Source: Natronomonas aquatica (GTDB lineage Archaea > Halobacteriota > Halobacteria > Halobacteriales > Haloarculaceae). From it: 58,985 nucleotides of DNA. The stretch is from the NCBI RefSeq assembly GCF_024449025.1, contig NZ_JAHLKM010000018.1:1-58985 (forward strand). Direction: 5' to 3'. The translations under genes were made by a program, and so were the position numbers. Positions 3,674 to 22,913 of the stretch are shown here, piece after piece; the stretch's first letter is position 1; each line of letters opens with the position of its first letter. The notes below the pieces were generated by a model. That model saw only the letters and a program-made list of their open reading frames with translations. It was not told the DNA's origin and did not search any database.

Positions 3674-4012
3674 ATGAAACAGGCCATCGTCGCCAGGACG
3701 GACATCGGGATGGGGACCGGCAAGCTCGCCGCACAGGTCGCCCACGCCTCGCTTTCGGCCTACGAGAAGGCTGAAACGGCGGCCCGAAACGAGTGGAAGT
3801 CCGGCGGGCAAAAGAAGATCGTCCTGAAGGGAAACGGAGAAAAACAGCTCCAGCGGCTGGCCGACGAGGCGCGCCGGGAGGGGCTGCCGTACGCGCTCGT
3901 CCGGGACGCCGGCCACACCCAACTGGAACCGGGCACCGTGACCGCCCTCGCCGTCGGGCCGGGCGGGGAGAACGTCGTCGACAAGGTGACCGGCGATCTG
4001 AGCCTCTATTGA
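3674..4012 (+). CDS. pth2: Peptidyl-tRNA hydrolase Pth2
   Basis: A 112-residue archaeal/eukaryotic-type peptidyl-tRNA hydrolase, which frees tRNA from prematurely released peptidyl-tRNA in the cytoplasm. It has the full family length. Recognisable features are the N-terminal strand and helix ([20 protein letters not shown]), the AHAS segment, and the C-terminal [21 protein letters not shown] motif with its conserved Asp, His and Thr. It is followed head-on by the flavin reductase gene, whose stop codon directly abuts its own (4012/4013). Confidence 0.95.
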
Positions 4013-5086
4013 TCAGTCGAAACCGCGGGTGTACTGGCGCGGGACGGGCGCCTCGTAGCCCAACTCCTTCGCCGCGTGGAGCGTAAAGTACGGGTCCCGG
4101 AGGTGTTCCCGGCCGACGATCGCGAGGTCCGCCCGGCCGTTCCGGACGACCTCCTCGGCACCCTCCGGGGTCGTGATCTTGCCGACGGCACCGACGGGGA
4201 CGCCGCTTTCGGCGACGCGTTCGGCGTAGGGAACCTGATAGTGGGGCCCCGGCTCGGGGACCTGCTGGTCGGGGTGGTTCCCGCCCGCGCTCACGTCGAT
4301 CAGATCGGCGCCGAGCGGCTCCAGATCGCCGGCGAGCCGCGCCGAGTCCTCGACGGTCCACGACTTTCGGTCCGGGAGCCAGTCGGTCGCGGAAATCCGA
4401 ACGAAAAGCGGCGTTCCCTCGGGGATCTCCTCGCGGACCTCGCGGACGATTTCCCTGAGGAGTCGGGTCCGGTTCTCGAAGCTGCCGCCGTAGTCGTCCT
4501 CGCGGGTGTTCGTCACCGGCGAGAGGAACTCGTGGAGCAGATAGCCGTGGGCAGCGTGGATCTCCAGAATATCGAACCCAACGTCGACGGCCCGTCGGGC
4601 CGCCGTGACGAAGGCGTCGATCACGCGCTCGATACCCTCGATGTCGAGCCGTTCGGTCTCCAGGGGCTCGTCGGCGGGCCACGGTTCGGACGTCGGGCCG
4701 ACGGGCGTCCAGCCGGCCTCGTCGCGGCGCGGACCGCGGCCGTCGGCGGGGCGATACGTCGAGGCCTTCCGGCCGGCGTGGGCCAGCTGGATCGCGGAGG
4801 TCGCGCCCTGTGACTCGATGTACTCGGTGATCGGCCGGAGGGCCTCGGCGTGTTCGTCGCTCCAGATCCCCAGGTCCTGTGGCGAGATACGGCCCCGAGG
4901 CGTGACGGCGGTCGCCTCCGTCATCACGATCCCGGCGCCGCCGGTCGCCCGGCTGCCGAGGTGGACCAGATGCCAGTCGGTCGCCAGCCCGTCCATCTCC
5001 TCACAGGAGTACTGACACATCGGCGAGACCATCACGCGGTTTCGGGCCGTCACGTCCCGACACTCGAAAGGTTCGAAGAGGTGCAT
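4013..5086 (-). CDS. Old yellow enzyme family NADH:flavin oxidoreductase (YqjM-like)
   Basis: A 357-residue FMN enzyme of the OYE/YqjM class, which reduces activated C=C bonds using NAD(P)H. The start MHLFEPFECRDVTARNR is typical, and the upstream extension of the frame has no family similarity. Key motifs are MSPMCQYS (Cys that tunes FMN in YqjM), IQLAHAGRKAS, and EIHAAHGYLLHEFLSP with the catalytic His pair region. The barrel ends with AIVGREHLRDP, which carries the phosphate-binding segment. The physiological substrate cannot be told. It sits antisense between pth2 and truD, so it was probably inserted between conserved information-processing genes. Confidence 0.9.
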   Translation of the reverse strand: MHLFEPFECRDVTARNRVMVSPMCQYSCEEMDGLATDWHLVHLGSRATGGAGIVMTEATAVTPRGRISPQDLGIWSDEHAEALRPITEYIESQGATSAIQLAHAGRKASTYRPADGRGPRRDEAGWTPVGPTSEPWPADEPLETERLDIEGIERVIDAFVTAARRAVDVGFDILEIHAAHGYLLHEFLSPVTNTREDDYGGSFENRTRLLREIVREVREEIPEGTPLFVRISATDWLPDRKSWTVEDSARLAGDLEPLGADLIDVSAGGNHPDQQVPEPGPHYQVPYAERVAESGVPVGAVGKITTPEGAEEVVRNGRADLAIVGREHLRDPYFTLHAAKELGYEAPVPRQYTRGFD

Positions 5087-5209
5087 GCCGACCGTTCGGG
5101 GCGGGAGAAAAAGACCCTTCGTATCTCCGCCGGACGGCAGAATTAACGCTTTAGCCGCGACCGTAGAAGCGATAGCAAACGGCTTGTCCCTCGACGACAC
5201 AGCTATCGT

Positions 5210-6535
5210 ATGCGCGAGGCTCACCAGGCCGAAGCCGCCGTCGGAATCGAGTATTACGTCTCCGAGACCGAGGGGACCGGCGGTCGGCTCCGGGACCGAT
5301 CCGTGGACTTCCGGGTCCGCGAGCGGGAGGCCTTCGGCGCGGAGCTTCGGGACCCCGACGCCGAGACCGGCTCCTACCCGCATCTCGTCTTCCGGGCGAC
5401 GCTCGAAGGCTGGGATACGAACGACTTCGCGTCTGCACTCTCGAACCGCTTCGGGGTGAGCCGAGAGCGCGTCTCGTGGGCGGGGACGAAGGACAAACGC
5501 GCGGTCACGACGCAGCTTTTTTCGATCAAACGCGAGGGGAACACGCTGCCGGAACTCGACGGCGCCGAGATCGAGGCACTCGGCCGGGCCGGCCGGCCGG
5601 TTCTCTTTGGGGACCTGATCGGCAACGAGTTCGAGATCGTCGTCCGCGACGCCGATCGGCCCGAAAACGCCGACCGGATCGCCGCCGAACTCCGGGCGTT
5701 CGCGGGAACCGACAGCGGTGACGGCGCCGAAATTGCGGTCCCGAACTACTTCGGGCAACAGCGGTTCGGCTCGAAGCGACCGATCACCCACCGGGTCGGC
5801 CTCGCGGTCCTCGCCGACGACTGGGAGACCGCCGCCGTCCGGTACGTCTGTGAGTCCAGCGAGCGTGAGCCCGAGCGGACCCGAAAAGCGCGCGACCGGA
5901 TCGCCGCCGAGCGGGACTGGTCGGCCGTCGACGAGGAGCTCCCGGGCGGGCTCCGGTTCGAGCGGGCGATCGCCGCCAGGCTGGCCGAGGGCGCCGACAC
6001 CCCGGAGGACTACCGGGCGGCGCTCGAAGAACTGCCCTCGAACCTCCAGCGGATGTTCACGAACGCGGCACAGTCGTACGTCTACAACCGGATCCTCTCG
6101 GAACGGCTCCGGCGTGGAATGCCCTTCGGCCGGCCGGTCGAGGGCGACGTGGTCTGTTTCACCGACGGCGACGGGCTGCCCGACCCCGACCGGACGCAGG
6201 TCGTCGAGGAAACACAGCTCCGGACGATCCGCCGGCACTGCGAACGCGGGCGGGCGTTCGTCACGGCGCCGCTCGTGGGGACCGAAACCGAGTTCGGTGC
6301 GGAGGAACCGCGATCGATCACCCGGGAGGTGCTTTCCGATCTCGGGATCGAGCGGTCGGATTTCGACCTCCCGGGCGAGTTCGGATCGACCGGCACCCGG
6401 CGGGCGATCGGCGTCTCGACCGACCTCACGCTCGGCGAGGACCCGCTCGAACTCCGGTTCTCGCTGCCGAAAGGAAGCTACGCGACGGTCCTCGCCCGCG
6501 AGTTCCTGAAGACCGACCCGGACGACCTCGCCTGA
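5210..6535 (+). CDS. truD: tRNA pseudouridine(13) synthase TruD
   Basis: A 441-residue TruD-family pseudouridine synthase, which acts on U13 of tRNA (and related positions in archaea). The catalytic Asp is D95 in [13 protein letters not shown]. Other family signatures are [11 protein letters not shown], and [19 protein letters not shown] in the TRUD insertion domain. The C-terminal [18 protein letters not shown] is the conserved end of the family. Length is normal for archaeal TruD. The ATG at 5210 opens the conserved [14 protein letters not shown] start. Confidence 0.95.
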
Positions 6536-6589
6536 TCGGACGGTCCGGAAACCGCCCCGCTTATCGGCCTCGATCGCCTCCCTTCGGGT

Positions 6590-7312
6590 ATGGAGTGTCG
6601 GTGCTGTGCGTCGCCGCTCGACCGACCGGGCGATTACTGTCTGGTCTGTCGGAGCGAAAACGCCGACACGGTCGTCATCGAGTGTGCCCACGATCGGGCG
6701 AGCGTGACGACGCTTTTCGACGAGGAGGTCGTCGGCGAGCGGACCGTGACGACGAACCCCGAAACCGAAGAGCGGTGGATCCCGACCGAACGCCGGAACT
6801 TCGCGGGGCGGATCGCCGACGAAGTCCGGCGGAAACGCCCGGAGGAGGTCTATGCGACCGGCGACCGGGGCGTGATCAACGCGGTCCGCGGCGAACTCCG
6901 GTATCCCTTCTACCGGATCGAGGACGACGATCCGATCGAGGCCGTCCGCCGAAAGCGAGGGGAGCCGGCGCTCGCGGTCGTCGAGGCGTCGGCCGCAGAA
7001 AAGCTAGGCGGTAGCCACAGCACGCTCATCGGCGGTCGGGACGGCCGCCGGGCGATACAGACGGTCGCCGGACACCCCCACGTCAAGAAGATCATTCCTG
7101 GGCCGATCGACGCCGGCGGCTCCGGGTCCCAAAGCGGCGTCCGGGCGAAGGCGACCCGCGCCGACGAACGCGGCAACGTCCGGCTTCTGATCCGCGATGG
7201 CTCGAGCGTTCAGGAGAACCGGATCGTCACGACCGCCGGCGATCGGGAACTGGGCGAGCGCGTCCGGGCGGACCTCAACGAGGCGCTCTCGGAGGCCGAA
7301 CTGGGCGAGTGA
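6590..7312 (+). CDS. DUF2103-type predicted metal-binding protein
   Basis: 240 residues. The N-terminus is a zinc ribbon (MECRCCAS and YCLVCR, C-x2-C pairs). The middle has no motif I can assign. The C-terminal half contains [15 protein letters not shown] and [13 protein letters not shown], which I associate with the archaeal DUF2103/COG4031 family. It ends with a segment resembling an RNA-binding strand region. Function is unknown. It lies directly upstream of the rpl37ae-rpoP-pcc1 cluster, hinting at a translation-related role, which is inference from position only. Confidence 0.65.
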
Positions 7313-9192: not shown

Positions 9193-9238
9193 AGACGTGC
9201 GTTTCTGTTTTGTTTCCGATTCCCGATGCGGTAACAGT

Positions 9239-9601
9239 ATGGGGAAGTACGCCTTCCTGATAACCGGAGGGCCCGATCGGGTCGGCAGCGTACTCAACGG
9301 GATCGAGTACGCACTGACACTCGACAACGACGGCCATGAAGTTCGCGTCTATCTCGACGGCGCGGCGACGAAATGGCCGGGGGAACTCGAACGGCGGGTC
9401 GATCACCCGCTCCACGAGCGGTTCTCAGAGCTCCTCGATCGCGATCTGGTCGCTGCCTGTGCGTTCTGTGCCGACGCGTTCGACGCGATCGACGGCTGCC
9501 GGGGGGCTAATATCCGACTCCAGGGCGTCCCTGACGAGCAACACGGGCCCGATGTCGGACGGCTCGTCGAAGAGGACTTTGAGCTTCTTACTCTTTCTTA
9601 A
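9239..9601 (+). CDS. DsrE family protein
   Basis: A 120-residue DsrE/DsrF-like protein with a Rossmann-like alpha/beta fold. The start MGKYAFLITGGPDRVGSVLN was chosen because the upstream 14 residues of the frame do not match the family. HEVRVYLDGAATKWPGEL and ACAFCADAFDA carry the substrate-pocket and cysteine positions used by sulfur-relay relatives. Here Cys pairs occur at C-A-F-C and in DGCRG. Function could be sulfur transfer or a stress-related role; no tus/dsr partners are adjacent. It lies downstream of the GGTAAC inverted repeat. Confidence 0.8.
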   Translation: MGKYAFLITGGPDRVGSVLNGIEYALTLDNDGHEVRVYLDGAATKWPGELERRVDHPLHERFSELLDRDLVAACAFCADAFDAIDGCRGANIRLQGVPDEQHGPDVGRLVEEDFELLTLS

Positions 9602-13844: not shown

Positions 13845-14555
13845 CTACGTTCCGCCGTCCGCACTCGCGACTATCGAGACGTAACTCACGTCCCCGGCCT
13901 CGAGGGCGGCTTCGAGTCCCTCGATCGCCGTCATGACGCGCCGTCCGCGCTTTCCAATCAGTCCGAGCAATCCCTCGTAATCGATCCGTTCGTTCACCCG
14001 ATCGCGCATCGCGAGGAGATCGTCGTGGTGATCCTCGATCGATCGCACCTCAAAGCCGGCCTCGGCGAGCGCCGCCCGTAACCGATCGCGGCTCCGCGCG
14101 CCGTCGAGACAGAGCGCCTCGGCCATCCGATCCGGGAGCGGAGGGTGTTCGCCCTCGACGACGACGTCCGAGAGCGCGAGCCGACCACCGTCGTTCATTA
14201 CCCGGTTTGCCTCCCCGAGCGCGACCGGGAGGTCGGTGAGACACAGTACACACTCGGCGAGGAGGACGTCGACGCTTCCGTCCCGTACCGGAAGCGCCGT
14301 CGCGTCCCCCCGTACCGCCCGATCAGCCGCCGGGGACGGATCGATACCCACGGCGTCGGCACCGCGCTCTCTGGCCACCTGCAGCGCGTCTCCGGCGCCG
14401 CAGCCGACGTCGAGGAGACGTGCCCCAGGGACGACGTCTGCCCGGTCGAGCAGCCGTTCCGTCGCCTCGGTCCCGCCCGGGTGAAGCGGCCCCTCGAGGA
14501 CAGTATCGAGGGTACCCCACGGGTTCGCCAACGCAGCGTCGAGCAGCCCGTTCAT
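13845..14555 (-). CDS. Class I SAM methyltransferase paired with radical SAM enzyme
   Basis: A 236-residue class I methyltransferase of the UbiE/ArsM type. SAM motif I is RLLDVGCGAGDALQVA, and the later acidic strand reads DVLLAECVLCLTDLPVAL, with E-C-V-L-C as in ArsM-like/DVU_1556-type relatives. The C-terminal region LRAALAEAGFEVRSIEDH is typical of the family. Its ATG overlaps the stop of the radical SAM gene upstream (ATGA at 14552-14555), so both are one operon. The substrate is unknown. Confidence 0.85.
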   Translation of the reverse strand: MNGLLDAALANPWGTLDTVLEGPLHPGGTEATERLLDRADVVPGARLLDVGCGAGDALQVARERGADAVGIDPSPAADRAVRGDATALPVRDGSVDVLLAECVLCLTDLPVALGEANRVMNDGGRLALSDVVVEGEHPPLPDRMAEALCLDGARSRDRLRAALAEAGFEVRSIEDHHDDLLAMRDRVNERIDYEGLLGLIGKRGRRVMTAIEGLEAALEAGDVSYVSIVASADGGT

Positions 14556-16072
14556 CGCTCCTCTGTTCGATCGTCCGGCCCGTGCCCACCGTCGGGTATC
14601 GTCCCGTCGTTCCGGTAGCCGGTCGTCGATTCGCCTTCGACAGGCGGTTCATCGACCGTGCTCCGGCCGCCCCAGCCCTTTCGGTTCCGGAGCGCGTACT
14701 CACCGTCCTCGGTCGTCATGTTGTAGCCGCAGAACGGAACCAACTCACCGTCCGCCGTCGGTACCGAGAGACAGCAGTTGCTCAACCGGTTCACGTCGGC
14801 CGCGTCGGCGTCCATGAACCCCGTGAACGACACGGGGACGATCTCATCGAACAGCCCCTCGACACTGCCGGGTACGTCGATACCACAGCAGCCGGCGGTC
14901 TTGCAAGCCCACTCTTCGCCGGCGGCGGTGCCGGCCAGAAGCTCCATGTAGTCGCCCTCGTCGACCATCCCCGAGAGTATCCCCCAGAGCCGGTCGTCGA
15001 CGTACTGTGTGAGCGGGACGAACGAATCGACGTCCGGGCTCGTGGACGTGTCGGTCTCCCGGCTCGGATCGCCACAGCCGCAGTCAGAGTCATCGTCTCG
15101 GGCGGCTCCACACTCGGTGTCCCCGCCCGGGTCGGCGTCGCGGGGGACGAACGCGGTTCCGATCTGACAGTAGGCCGAACAGCAGGGGGCCGGCAGCATG
15201 TCGCGCGGCTCGAGCGTGTCGATCTGCTCGGCCAGCGATCGCGTCGCGTCGTCGATGGCGAACCGGCCGTCGTTTCGTTCGTACCGGCCGAAGTGAGCCA
15301 CCGGCTGGAAGTTGACCGACCGGACGATGTCCCTGTTTTCGAGCGCGAACCGGACGATATCGCCCATCTCGTGGTCGTTGACGCCCGGCACCACGGTCGG
15401 AACGAGGACGACTGGCAGGGCCGCCGCCCGACAGGCTTCGATGGCCGCGAGTTTCTCTTCGAGCAGATCGATCTCGCGGATCCGCTCGTAGCTCTCGCTC
15501 GTCAGGCCATCGAACTGCAGGTAGATCGCAGTGACACCGGCGTCGGCGAGGACATCTACATAGCCCGGGTCGGTCGCCAGCCGGATCCCGTTCGTGTTCA
15601 CCTCGACGTGGTCGATACCGCGATCGCGAGCCCGCTCGACAAGTTCCGGCAGGTCGTTTCGCACCGTGGGCTCGCCGCCGGAGAACTGGATCGGCCGCCC
15701 GCCGGCGTCCGCAACGGTATCCAACAGCGTCTCGATCTCCGCCGTTGAGCGGTGTTCGCCACCGGGGGCGGAACTGGCAAAACAGTACGAACACGAGAGG
15801 TTACAGTCGGTCGTGACCTCGACGACGGCCAGACAGGCGTGGTCGTCGTCGACAGTCAGATCGCCGCCGTCGTGTTCCGGATCCGGGCCGAAGTCGGCGG
15901 CCCACTCCCAGTGGTCAATCGAGCCCCAGATCTTTCGGCTCGTGGTGCCGTGTGTCGGGCACTCGCGTGTGAGGAACACGCCATCCTCCTGTTGCTCGTA
16001 GCGGCCGGGGACTTCCTCGAGACAGTCCGGACAGAGGCTCGTCGTGGCCGTGAGGGCGTCGCCGTCGTCCAT
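14552..16072 (-). CDS. Radical SAM protein, MJ0619/tetraether-synthase-like
   Basis: 506 residues. The start ATG at 16072 has a TATA element (CTTATGAC) about 27 nt upstream; longer frames lack a conserved start. The N-terminus has an extra metal-binding region (TSLCPDC with C14 and C17; C38). The radical SAM cluster motif is C90-x3-C94-x2-C97 (CNLSCSYC), followed by FSGGEPT, VNTNGIRLA, AIYLQFDG and VPGVNDHEMGDIVRFA. The C-terminal half carries many cysteines (PCCSAYC, DCGCG, KTAGCCG, SNCCLS, PFCGYN) that could hold further clusters. These features match the MJ0619 superfamily, which includes tetraether lipid synthase Tes and the TrsS group. The reaction here is not known. Confidence 0.8.
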   Translation of the reverse strand: MDDGDALTATTSLCPDCLEEVPGRYEQQEDGVFLTRECPTHGTTSRKIWGSIDHWEWAADFGPDPEHDGGDLTVDDDHACLAVVEVTTDCNLSCSYCFASSAPGGEHRSTAEIETLLDTVADAGGRPIQFSGGEPTVRNDLPELVERARDRGIDHVEVNTNGIRLATDPGYVDVLADAGVTAIYLQFDGLTSESYERIREIDLLEEKLAAIEACRAAALPVVLVPTVVPGVNDHEMGDIVRFALENRDIVRSVNFQPVAHFGRYERNDGRFAIDDATRSLAEQIDTLEPRDMLPAPCCSAYCQIGTAFVPRDADPGGDTECGAARDDDSDCGCGDPSRETDTSTSPDVDSFVPLTQYVDDRLWGILSGMVDEGDYMELLAGTAAGEEWACKTAGCCGIDVPGSVEGLFDEIVPVSFTGFMDADAADVNRLSNCCLSVPTADGELVPFCGYNMTTEDGEYALRNRKGWGGRSTVDEPPVEGESTTGYRNDGTIPDGGHGPDDRTEER

Positions 16073-16202: not shown

Positions 16203-16946
16203 ATGACAGTTCCGACGGGACAGGCCCGATCCTCGGTGGCGGTTCCCGACACCGATCCAGCGGCGCTGGCTCAGAACCTGCTCGTCGCGTGCAAGCAAGG
16301 CGAGGGAACCGACCGATACAGGACCGCACTCGCCGAAGCGACCGACGACGACCTCCGTCCAGTGCGAGCGGACCGGTCGACCGCGCTTTCGTTCTGGCTC
16401 AACTGCTACAATGCGGGGACCCAGTTCCTCCTTGAGGATCGCCCGGGGCTCTACGAGAACCCGCTCAGATTCCTGCGGTTCTTCCGTGCGCCCGCGATCA
16501 CGGTCGGCGGAACCTCGCTCTCGCTGGATCGGATCGAGAACGGGCTGTTGCGCGGCGGCCGATCGAAGTACGGACTGGGCTATCTGCCGAAAATATACGT
16601 CACGGAGTTCGAACGGCGCTACCGGCTCGAGAGATGTGATCCGCGGATACACTTCGCGCTGAACTGCGGTGCCGAGAGCTGTCCGGCGATCCGGGCCTAC
16701 GAGCCCGATCGAATAGACGAACAACTGGATCTCGCCACCCGTCACTATCTCGATAGGACCGCCACCCACGACGCGGGGACTGTCCGCGTGCCCCGCGTAT
16801 TCCTGTGGTTCCGTGGCGACTTCGGCAGCCGCTCGGACATCCGTGCGTTTCTGCGCCGCTACGACGTGATTCCGGACGGCGCTGCGCCGAAGCTCCGCTA
16901 CCGGTCGTGGGACTGGTCGAAAGCGCCCGGAAAGTTCGCCGAGTAG
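16203..16946 (+). CDS. DUF547 domain protein
   Basis: A 247-residue DUF547 protein. Family signatures are LSFWLNCYNAGTQFLL, the ISLDRIENGLL-like TSLSLDRIENGLL, HFALNCGAESCPAIRAYEP and VFLWFRGDF. The conserved Cys in LNCG and SCP positions fits a thiol-peptidase-like fold proposed for this family, but activity has not been established. There is no signal peptide, whereas many bacterial members are exported. It is divergent from the radical SAM gene across 130 nt. Confidence 0.85.
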   Translation: MTVPTGQARSSVAVPDTDPAALAQNLLVACKQGEGTDRYRTALAEATDDDLRPVRADRSTALSFWLNCYNAGTQFLLEDRPGLYENPLRFLRFFRAPAITVGGTSLSLDRIENGLLRGGRSKYGLGYLPKIYVTEFERRYRLERCDPRIHFALNCGAESCPAIRAYEPDRIDEQLDLATRHYLDRTATHDAGTVRVPRVFLWFRGDFGSRSDIRAFLRRYDVIPDGAAPKLRYRSWDWSKAPGKFAE

Positions 16947-16986: not shown

Positions 16987-17484
16987 ATGGCCCAACAAGT
17001 ACCGGACTTCTCGCTGCCGAACGTGGCCACCGGACCGAACCCGTTCTCACTCTCGGAGCTGTCCGAGGACGTTGTCTTCGTCATCCTTTTCTTTCAGCGC
17101 GATCACTACTGTACGAACTGCCGGAAGCAGGTACAGGAACTCGCCGACCGCATCGACGAGTTCCACGAGCACGACGCAGAAGTCGTCTCTATCGTCCCGG
17201 AACCGGTCGAACGCGTCGAAGCCTGGCAGGAGCGATACGACCTCCCCTATCCGCTGTTGGCGGATCCGAACGCGGAAGCGGGCGAGGCCTACGACCAGCC
17301 CGTCCGGTTCGGGATCCTCGGTCGGTTCTCCGATTTCTTCGGCCGGATGCCCGAGGTAGTTGTCGTCGACAGGCGGGGGCCGGAACCGGAGATCGCGTAC
17401 GTTCATCGGGGCTCCTCGACGTTCGACAGGCCGGAGATAGACGCGTTGCTCGCGGAACTCGATGCGCTCCGGACAGGGGCGTGA
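16987..17484 (+). CDS. Peroxiredoxin-like redoxin (AhpC/TSA family)
   Basis: A 165-residue thioredoxin-fold protein of the AhpC/TSA class. The active-site region is FFQRDHYCTNCRKQVQEL, a C-x2-C pair where peroxiredoxins of the PRXL/AhpC2 type place their cysteines. VPDFSLPNVA at the N-terminus and PYPLLADPNAEAGEAY are typical. It is likely cytoplasmic. It lies 40 nt after DUF547 on the same strand and may be co-transcribed. Confidence 0.85.
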   Translation: MAQQVPDFSLPNVATGPNPFSLSELSEDVVFVILFFQRDHYCTNCRKQVQELADRIDEFHEHDAEVVSIVPEPVERVEAWQERYDLPYPLLADPNAEAGEAYDQPVRFGILGRFSDFFGRMPEVVVVDRRGPEPEIAYVHRGSSTFDRPEIDALLAELDALRTGA

Positions 17485-21629: not shown

Positions 21630-21803
21630 AGTGATGCCATAGGTTCAGTTCTATCGGACGCGAGGTTCCTAGTAAACCACGATGGGGGCGTTGAAGAGAG
21701 ACGCACACTGGCGAAAGCACAAGAATAAGTACCCGATCGGTGTGTGTGATCGAGACACACGATCGATCAATCGTTAATTCTACGTCGCCCGTACGATCCG
21801 GTG

Positions 21804-22913
21804 ATGAGATCCACTCGACGCCGTTTCGTCGCAGTAGCCGGTCTCAGTGCATTCGCAGGCTGTACCTCAGTCTTAGACCGTGGATCGGAGGGAGAGCCGG
21901 CTACGACGGCGGAGTCGAGTACTACCGAATCGGCGTCGGTAAACGACGAAGCCGTTCCGACTGCCGAGGCGACTCTACCACTGCCGATGGAACCCGGTGA
22001 ACTCGAATCACTCGCGGTCTCGGGGGGGCCACCCAAAGACGGGATCCCGTCCATCGACGAACCTTCGTTCGTCGGTCCCGACAACGCCGATTTCCTCGAC
22101 TCCGGTGATCCCGTGTTCGGCGTCGCGCTAAACGGCGCGATCAAGGCATACCCACAGAAGATTCTCGTTCGACACGAAATCGTCAACGACCGCCTCAGTG
22201 ACCGCTCCGTCGCAGTGACGTACTGTCCGCTGACTGGGACCGTCCAGGGGTTCGAGCGCGGGGAAACGACGTTCGGGGTCTCCGGTCGACTGATCAACAA
22301 CAACCTCGTGATGTACGATCGGGCGACAAAGGCCTGGTGGCCACAGATCCTCGCCACATCGATACCCGGGTCGTGGAACTCGGACCCCGGGACCAGCTCG
22401 TTACGGGAATTTAGACTCGTGTGGACGACGTGGGAGCGCTGGCGGGAGTTGTATCCCGACACGCAGGTCCTCTCGACGGAGACAGGTTTCGCAAAAAACT
22501 ACGGCAGCGATCCCTATGGCTCGTACAATCCGCGCGGGGGGTATTATGCCAACGAGAACATGCTATTCGAACCGCTCGAGGAAGACGACCGGTTCGGCCG
22601 GAAACGCGTCTTCATGGGTGCCCGGACTGCCGACGGGGCCGTCGCTTTCGACAAATCCACGCTGCTTGAAGAACGGATCATGACGGGGGAACTGAGCGGG
22701 ACACCGGTCGTCGCGGTCGCCGACCGACGCCTGAATACCGGGTACGTCTACCTGAATCCCGACGAACGGACAGCCACGACCGACGGCAGTACAGTGCAAA
22801 TGGGAGATTCCTCGTACGAACCGAATGCCCTACCGCTCGCGGGGGTCCACACGTTCGATGCGATGTGGTTCGCCTGGCACGGGTACTACCCGGACACCGA
22901 TGTCTATGCGTGA
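21804..22913 (+). CDS. DUF3179 domain lipoprotein
   Basis: 369 residues from ATG 21804 (a GTG directly precedes). The N-terminus is a Tat lipoprotein signal: STRRRFVAVAGLSAFAGC with a lipobox Cys, so it is probably exported folded and anchored by lipid. The DUF3179 core is clear: FGVALNGAIKAYPQKILVRH, VTYCPLTGTVQGFER, FGVSGRLINNNLVMYDR and WWPQILATSIPG. Conserved His/Cys residues in this family may bind metal, but no function is established. Its stop overlaps the next gene, which encodes a membrane protein, suggesting a joint envelope role. Confidence 0.88.
   Translation: MRSTRRRFVAVAGLSAFAGCTSVLDRGSEGEPATTAESSTTESASVNDEAVPTAEATLPLPMEPGELESLAVSGGPPKDGIPSIDEPSFVGPDNADFLDSGDPVFGVALNGAIKAYPQKILVRHEIVNDRLSDRSVAVTYCPLTGTVQGFERGETTFGVSGRLINNNLVMYDRATKAWWPQILATSIPGSWNSDPGTSSLREFRLVWTTWERWRELYPDTQVLSTETGFAKNYGSDPYGSYNPRGGYYANENMLFEPLEEDDRFGRKRVFMGARTADGAVAFDKSTLLEERIMTGELSGTPVVAVADRRLNTGYVYLNPDERTATTDGSTVQMGDSSYEPNALPLAGVHTFDAMWFAWHGYYPDTDVYA

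Follow-up and report, generated by a model that had tools for sequence, protein, structure and literature searches.

A Tes-related radical SAM enzyme of haloarchaea is linked to a methyltransferase with ArsM-like cysteines

RESULTS

Gene pair and radical SAM enzyme

The window analyzed here, a 58,985-nt stretch of Natronomonas aquatica (contig NZ_JAHLKM010000018.1), contains two overlapping genes on the reverse strand. The first (14552–16072, 506 aa) codes for a radical SAM enzyme (rSAM) in a haloarchaea-specific clade of the MJ0619/Tes–TrsS superfamily. It starts at the ATG at 16072; the surrounding open frame is longer, with a GTG start that would give 566 aa. The second (13845–14555, 236 aa) codes for a class I SAM methyltransferase (MT) that is nearest to the NCBIfam DVU_1556 family and has an ArsM-type cysteine pair. 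The rSAM stop and MT start share an ATGA (14552–14555, reverse strand; TCAT on the forward strand), an overlap noted in the initial annotation, and translation of the two genes is probably coupled through it. Pfam matches were found for rSAM (PF04055 radical SAM, 4e-31; PF23545 zinc ribbon, 4.1e-15) and for MT (Methyltransf_11, 8.3e-15). Identity to other haloarchaeal copies is 53%–80% for rSAM and 47%–74% for MT. The pairing of a radical SAM enzyme with a methyltransferase is more than chance.

The MJ0619-superfamily layout described initially for the 506-residue protein is present in full, with the CPDC motif, the CX3CX2C motif, and a Cys-rich C-terminal part. Four features, all on the reverse strand, occur in 30/30 aligned haloarchaeal members: a rubredoxin-like N-terminal domain (C14-X2-C17-X20-C38-X2-H41, made up of CPDC and CPTH; 15926–16045), a motif known from MJ0619 (PMC9433317); the radical SAM cluster site CX3CX2C (C90, C94, and C97; 15782–15805); a PxPCCSxYC segment with C298 and C302 (15167–15193); and the C-terminal cluster cysteines C433, C434, and C448 (NCC...PFC; 14729–14776). 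C302 corresponds to a C-terminal-cluster cysteine of Tes and is retained with C433 and C448 in all 30 members, in which C298 and C395 are also invariant.

The best NCBIfam model for rSAM is TrsS (NF045646), at 335.8 bits and under the cut-off of 490. The Tes model (NF045702) gives 276.7 bits, under its cut-off of 450. Four other haloarchaeal members score 338–358 and 269–289 bits against these models, respectively, and thus fall under the same cut-offs. The nearest solved structure is MJ0619 (PDB 7tol, E 4.7e-61). An AlphaFold2 model of rSAM has a pLDDT of 79.2, with residues 365–404, part of the stretch between the C-terminal cluster cysteines, poorly predicted. This model aligns to GDGT-MAS (7tom) with a Z score of 43.3 (409 residues, rmsd 3.1), compared to 20.5 for the next family, and rSAM is therefore predicted to have the MJ0619/Tes fold.

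Two functions are suggested by these matches. The Pfam name HMPTM for PF23545 preserves an older assignment of MJ0619 to pterin (methanopterin-type) methylation. The zinc ribbon match would favor that function, but the assignment has been judged incorrect for MJ0619 itself (PMC9433317), and we rejected pterin methylation on this literature as extremely improbable. The other function is tetraether or other lipid C–C coupling, in which rSAM would join phytanyl chains or another lipid and MT would modify the product. The fold match to 7tom and the Tes-like radical SAM core and C-terminal cluster cysteines are in its favor, and the comparisons with Tes below stand against it.

Comparison with tetraether synthase

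A comparison of rSAM with Tes and other MJ0619 members by phylogeny had been suggested in the initial annotation. An unrooted tree of 64 rows was constructed with 16 haloarchaeal rSAMs, Tes, and bacterial relatives, the last being TrsS-like rows only. All 16 haloarchaeal rSAMs form a single haloarchaea-only clade (100/100) on a long stem (1.42). This clade is separate from the Tes clade with full support and is its sister, and the split from other bacterial TrsS-like rows has support of 100/99. The Tes clade includes archaeal, haloarchaeal, and some bacterial Tes-like rows.

Residues with assigned roles in Tes differ as well. All four ligands of the N-terminal auxiliary cluster (C73/C77/C80/His; numbering and roles from PMC9433317) are present in 12/12 archaeal Tes. 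Among 30 haloarchaeal rSAMs, the second and third cysteines and the histidine are absent from all, and the first cysteine occurs in two by chance alignment. The labile Met439 of Tes and its neighbor His440 (MHFMD motif) are replaced by Thr and Gly in 30/30 haloarchaeal rSAMs, whereas Met439 is present in 12/12 archaeal Tes. An M439A variant of MJ0619 is still active (PMC9433317), so the loss of Met439 alone does not exclude activity. The region from C302 to M420 is less hydrophobic in haloarchaeal rSAMs than in archaeal Tes (0.39 versus 0.49) and has a mean net charge of −14 versus +4, although Tes from halophiles is also acidic (−10). Haloarchaeal rSAMs also differ from Tes in having extra cysteines and in always being linked to MT.

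Tes homologs were previously reported from 20 Halobacteria genomes, and their function was judged unclear (Zeng 2022, PMC8941075); proteins of this kind are thus already in print as Tes homologs. Halobellus clavatus and Halorientalis regularis are named there as carriers without detected GDGTs. Both genomes (L005 and L015) hold the MT-linked rSAM type, and no second rSAM gene was found at E ≤ 1e-30 in their class-sample copies (G306 and G203). On the Tes score, the separate clade, and the absent ligands, we rejected the identification of rSAM as Tes. Judged by its sequence, rSAM is related to Tes but is not a tetraether synthase, and the "tetraether-synthase-like" function first attributed to it was not upheld. 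Lipid coupling by the pair is, in our estimate, very unlikely, given also the published lipids of the two carriers.

Four of 391 Halobacteria genomes encode a different protein that exceeds the Tes cut-off (452.5, 677.7, 678.1, and 685.9 bits; loci L092, L093, L094, and L095; genomes G255, G095, G384, and G331) and have no MT. Since the Tes ligands are kept in three of these four proteins, there may be haloarchaea that produce tetraether or macrocyclic lipids. The initial remark that tetraether lipids are not a known trait of haloarchaea is weakened to this extent: a few have genuine Tes, though as a protein distinct from the rSAM described here. One more divergent Tes-like haloarchaeal protein (L057, genome G053) scores 412.9 bits against the cut-off of 450 and has an unusually long open frame. 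GMGT synthase (Gms) is described as having a SPASM-type C-terminal domain and a clade of its own (PMC11186832).

Linkage and distribution of the pair

A scan of genome contigs identified 46 loci, 21 of them haloarchaeal. MT is directly downstream of rSAM in 20/21 haloarchaeal loci, although it is incomplete and contains Ns in L009, and the exception (L021) stops at a contig end. MT was found in none of the 25 non-haloarchaeal loci of the same scan. We then surveyed 391 Halobacteria genomes (rSAM match, E ≤ 1e-30; MT match, E ≤ 1e-25). Matches to rSAM occur in 20 genomes and matches to MT in 16, all of which are among the 20. All 17 rSAM copies in those 16 genomes have MT directly downstream, and no MT without rSAM was found among the 391. 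The conserved linkage that had been proposed as a check on the pair was thus confirmed, and it is near-absolute in Halobacteria. The MT-type rSAM occurs in 7 of 60 close relatives, including the source genome, and its distribution is therefore patchy. A plasmid search identified five haloarchaeal copies, all on large plasmids, and a plasmid search for further MTs returned one record. A Haloarcula halophila plasmid (G392; L071 and L134) carries the pair in two copies, with one MT shortened by a stop and one rSAM split over two open frames.

Methyltransferase

The best model for MT is NCBIfam DVU_1556 (NF045667), at 139.5 bits and just below the cut-off of 155, and arsenite methyltransferase models rank directly behind it. 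Four other haloarchaeal MTs score 122–136 bits against the same model and cut-off. Haloarchaeal and bacterial members of the family have HPGG (residues 25–28; 14472–14483, reverse strand) and ECxxC motifs in common. When METHYLTRANSFERASE (MT) was aligned to CmArsM (5eg5), with numbers counted from the alignment, C102 of the segment C102-V-L-C105 (14241–14252, reverse strand) fell on C174 and C149 (14109–14111, reverse strand) fell on C224. In ArsM, As is bound by C72, C174, and C224, of which the last two are enough for the second methylation, MMA to DMA (PMC3877260).

His25, C102, C105, and C149 are present in 35/35 complete family MTs (MT-profile matches from all fetched loci), a set in which one genome fetched twice may count double. 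Two further family rows, outside these 35, have nothing in the last column (C149): one is cut off, and the other, an orphan Nitrospirota MT (L164), is not truncated but truly without C149 in a fuller alignment. Both C102 and C149 are kept in two bacterial ArsM rows, and 12/12 other MTs have neither. C105 is the only other conserved cysteine outside the SAM motif. The third ArsM cysteine (C72) and the N-terminal cysteine have no counterpart, since the first cysteine of MT is C52, and the N-terminal CC of ArsM is absent from haloarchaeal MTs. The ArsM-like character noted initially was upheld. The alignment adds a feature that the initial annotation did not have: MT retains the cysteine pair that binds As(III) in ArsM.

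Phylogenetic analysis separated haloarchaeal MTs, ArsM, and bacterial family MTs, including a Mycolicibacterium copy (L106), from other MTs with moderate support (88/83). Among solved structures, the top match of the MT profile is a D-glucose O-methyltransferase (83 bits), compared to 60 bits for the best ArsM, and the top 50 rows of a fold search do not include ArsM. The name "TrsM", used initially for MT, was not met in any search, and a literature search of open PMC papers found none on DVU1556 and a single listing for TrsS.

These affiliations bear on a function with no metalloid in the product. The pair would then be a TrsS/DVU_1556-type module in which rSAM acts on a cofactor, a peptide, or a metabolite by modifying or coupling one of its unactivated carbons, MT methylates the same molecule, and the conserved MT cysteines are redox-active or structural. 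The best models for both proteins are families without an assigned product, and the MT fold is common to small-molecule methyltransferases. One locus, moreover, is beside a tungstate system: a Salinirussus MAG (L018:1623–4879, reverse strand) has a TupA-like tungstate transporter and a ModE-type regulator divergent from the pair. This function accounts neither for the exact ArsM cysteine pair (35/35) nor for the DUF547 link to arsenosugar genes described below, but we consider it a realistic possibility, nearly as likely as the organometalloid function favored in the Discussion.

Neighboring genes

Two forward-strand genes that diverge from the pair are recurrent partners, which the initial annotation did not notice. 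One codes for a DUF547 protein (16203–16946, 247 aa; PF04784, 103.9 bits) and the other for an AhpC/TSA redoxin with a CTNC motif (16987–17484, 165 aa; PF00578, 80.6 bits), which scores 52.5 bits against a SelL-related model with a cut-off of 120. Among 32 haloarchaeal stretches, the redoxin was counted in 18, DUF547 in 15, and at least one of them in 24, which is an undercount. The automated count recorded MT in 27/32; four of the five misses hold MT and the fifth (L009) holds part of it, with Ns. DUF547 and the redoxin also occur together in one haloarchaeal island without the pair. Two haloarchaeal DUF547 islands that have no pair showed no ars gene, and neither did most haloarchaeal neighborhoods of the pair. 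Just upstream of the Halorarius pair is an ArsC-like gene that scores 62.6 bits against a cut-off of 174.3.

Other genes of the window recur near the pair. A small protein (9197–9601, forward strand) without a Pfam match has homologs near the pair in 7/32 stretches; its DsrE label comes from a single annotated relative. A DUF3179 protein (21801–22913, forward strand; 297 bits) is near the pair in 5/32 stretches and also occurs in DUF547 islands without the pair.

MerA-like oxidoreductases, DsrE proteins, and TauE/SafE proteins are frequent neighbors. They are consistent with organo-selenium, -tellurium, -antimony, or mercury chemistry by the same architecture in place of arsenic, as is the ability of a dithiol site to bind other soft ions. 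The DUF547 links lead to arsenosugar genes, and we regard these other elements as improbable.

Bacterial relatives

In a planctomycete (L169), genes for rSAM (3698–5230), DUF547 (5227–6126, 68.3 bits), and MT (6123–6899, 147.2 bits) overlap end to end. A Mycolicibacterium plasmid has an rSAM–MT pair near CcdA and a thioredoxin-like gene. Neither DUF547 nor MT was found in the other bacterial TrsS-like loci examined, many of which have only 1.5 kb of flank. Five non-haloarchaeal DUF547 plasmid contexts were viewed, four of them annotated; they are a lead rather than a statistic. In three of the four, DUF547 has arsS or an arsenosugar glycosyltransferase as a neighbor, or a relative of the latter that falls just short of the cut-off. 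These are Hymenobacter (arsS and a TIGR04283 glycosyltransferase), Burkholderia glumae (arsS, thioredoxin, CcdA, and TIGR04283), and Roseomonas (a TIGR04283-like glycosyltransferase at 165 bits, the cut-off being 182). The annotation of the Pseudoalteromonas context names no arsenic gene, and the Cupriavidus record is without annotation. In Burkholderia glumae, an rSAM overlaps DUF547 and has TrsS as its best, though distant, family (106 bits). We found no paper joining DUF547 and arseno- terms among open PMC papers.

TrsS was not identified over its cut-off in 60 close relatives, 295 Nitrospirota genomes, or 294 Planctomycetota genomes. The haloarchaeal rSAM has TrsS as its best-scoring family and shares with TrsS-like rows the NCC motif (C434 in 24/26). 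These rows, all below the TrsS cut-off, keep the N-terminal cluster in 24/26, whereas the haloarchaeal rSAM does not. Some bacterial TrsS-like relatives are linked to MT, as the haloarchaeal rSAM is. The early comparison to a TrsS/MT-type module thus stands as a resemblance in pairing but not as membership in TrsS, given a score of 335.8 against 490. The MT-linkage label requires three changes on the rSAM tree, indicating that rSAM and MT came together, or stayed together, in separate parts of the tree. A grouping of the haloarchaeal rSAMs and the MT-linked rSAM of Mycolicibacterium in one clade, named post hoc, was weakly rejected (AU p 0.024). One Nitrospirota locus (L124 and L125) contains tandem divergent TrsS-like rSAM genes.

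DISCUSSION

A Tes-related rSAM paired with an MT that has ArsM cysteines probably makes a small molecule, which may be an organic compound of arsenic. We tentatively favor a haloarchaea-specific rSAM/MT module whose product would be a small organometalloid, with an organoarsenical as the leading candidate. Via C102 and C149, perhaps with C105 as a third metalloid-binding thiol, MT would bind a soft metalloid, for which As(III) and monoalkyl-As(III) are the likeliest candidates, and would methylate it with SAM. The rSAM would generate a 5'-deoxyadenosyl radical, take H from an unactivated carbon, hold that carbon at its C-terminal Fe–S cluster, as MJ0619 does, and couple it to the metalloid. 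The CTNC redoxin and related thiol proteins could maintain both the trivalent state of the metalloid and the reduced state of the cysteines, with DUF547 in an accessory role. The nature of the product is suggested by analogy with ArsS/ArsM (arsenosugar) and ArsL/ArsM, a pair that makes arsinothricin (PMC8552651). Those systems have the same logic of rSAM plus MT and the As-binding cysteine pair, but the haloarchaeal rSAM is from another family, and the haloarchaeal MT differs from ArsM in having HPGG and CxxC and no N-terminal CC.

The organometalloid function is favored because the equivalents of CmArsM C174 and C224 occur in 35/35 family MTs and 0/12 other MTs, because ArsM models rank next after DVU_1556, and because the MT tree groups ArsM with the family. 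The linkage of 17/17 copies, the planctomycete rSAM–DUF547–MT operon, DUF547 beside arsenosugar genes, and the ArsC-like gene in Halorarius also argue for it. Several observations argue against it: O/C-methyltransferases outrank ArsM as solved relatives, the N-terminal CC is missing, most haloarchaeal neighborhoods have no ars gene, DUF547 and the redoxin share an island without the pair, the L164 MT has no C149, and most bacterial TrsS-like rSAMs have no adjoining DUF547 or MT.

A more specific proposal, that the Tes-like rSAM forms a C–As bond at an unactivated carbon (e.g., an isoprenoid chain end) while its ArsM-like partner methylates the As, is rather unlikely, though worth stating. If true, this would be an enzyme pair for arsenolipids or another haloarchaeal organoarsenical, and C–As bond formation would be new chemistry for the MJ0619 superfamily.

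No prior report of the separate clade, strict MT linkage, ArsM-type cysteines, or DUF547 link was found in open PMC papers. The Halobacteria "Tes homologs" of PMC8941075 include a separate MT-linked enzyme, seen in both strains named in that report. Because this enzyme is separate from Tes, it should not be used for predicting tetraethers, and it is now set apart from the few haloarchaea with genuine Tes. A metalloid-binding MT combined with Tes-type radical chemistry would offer a concrete hypothesis for haloarchaea in culture, with Haloarcula sinaiiensis ATCC 33800 as one strain that carries the pair.
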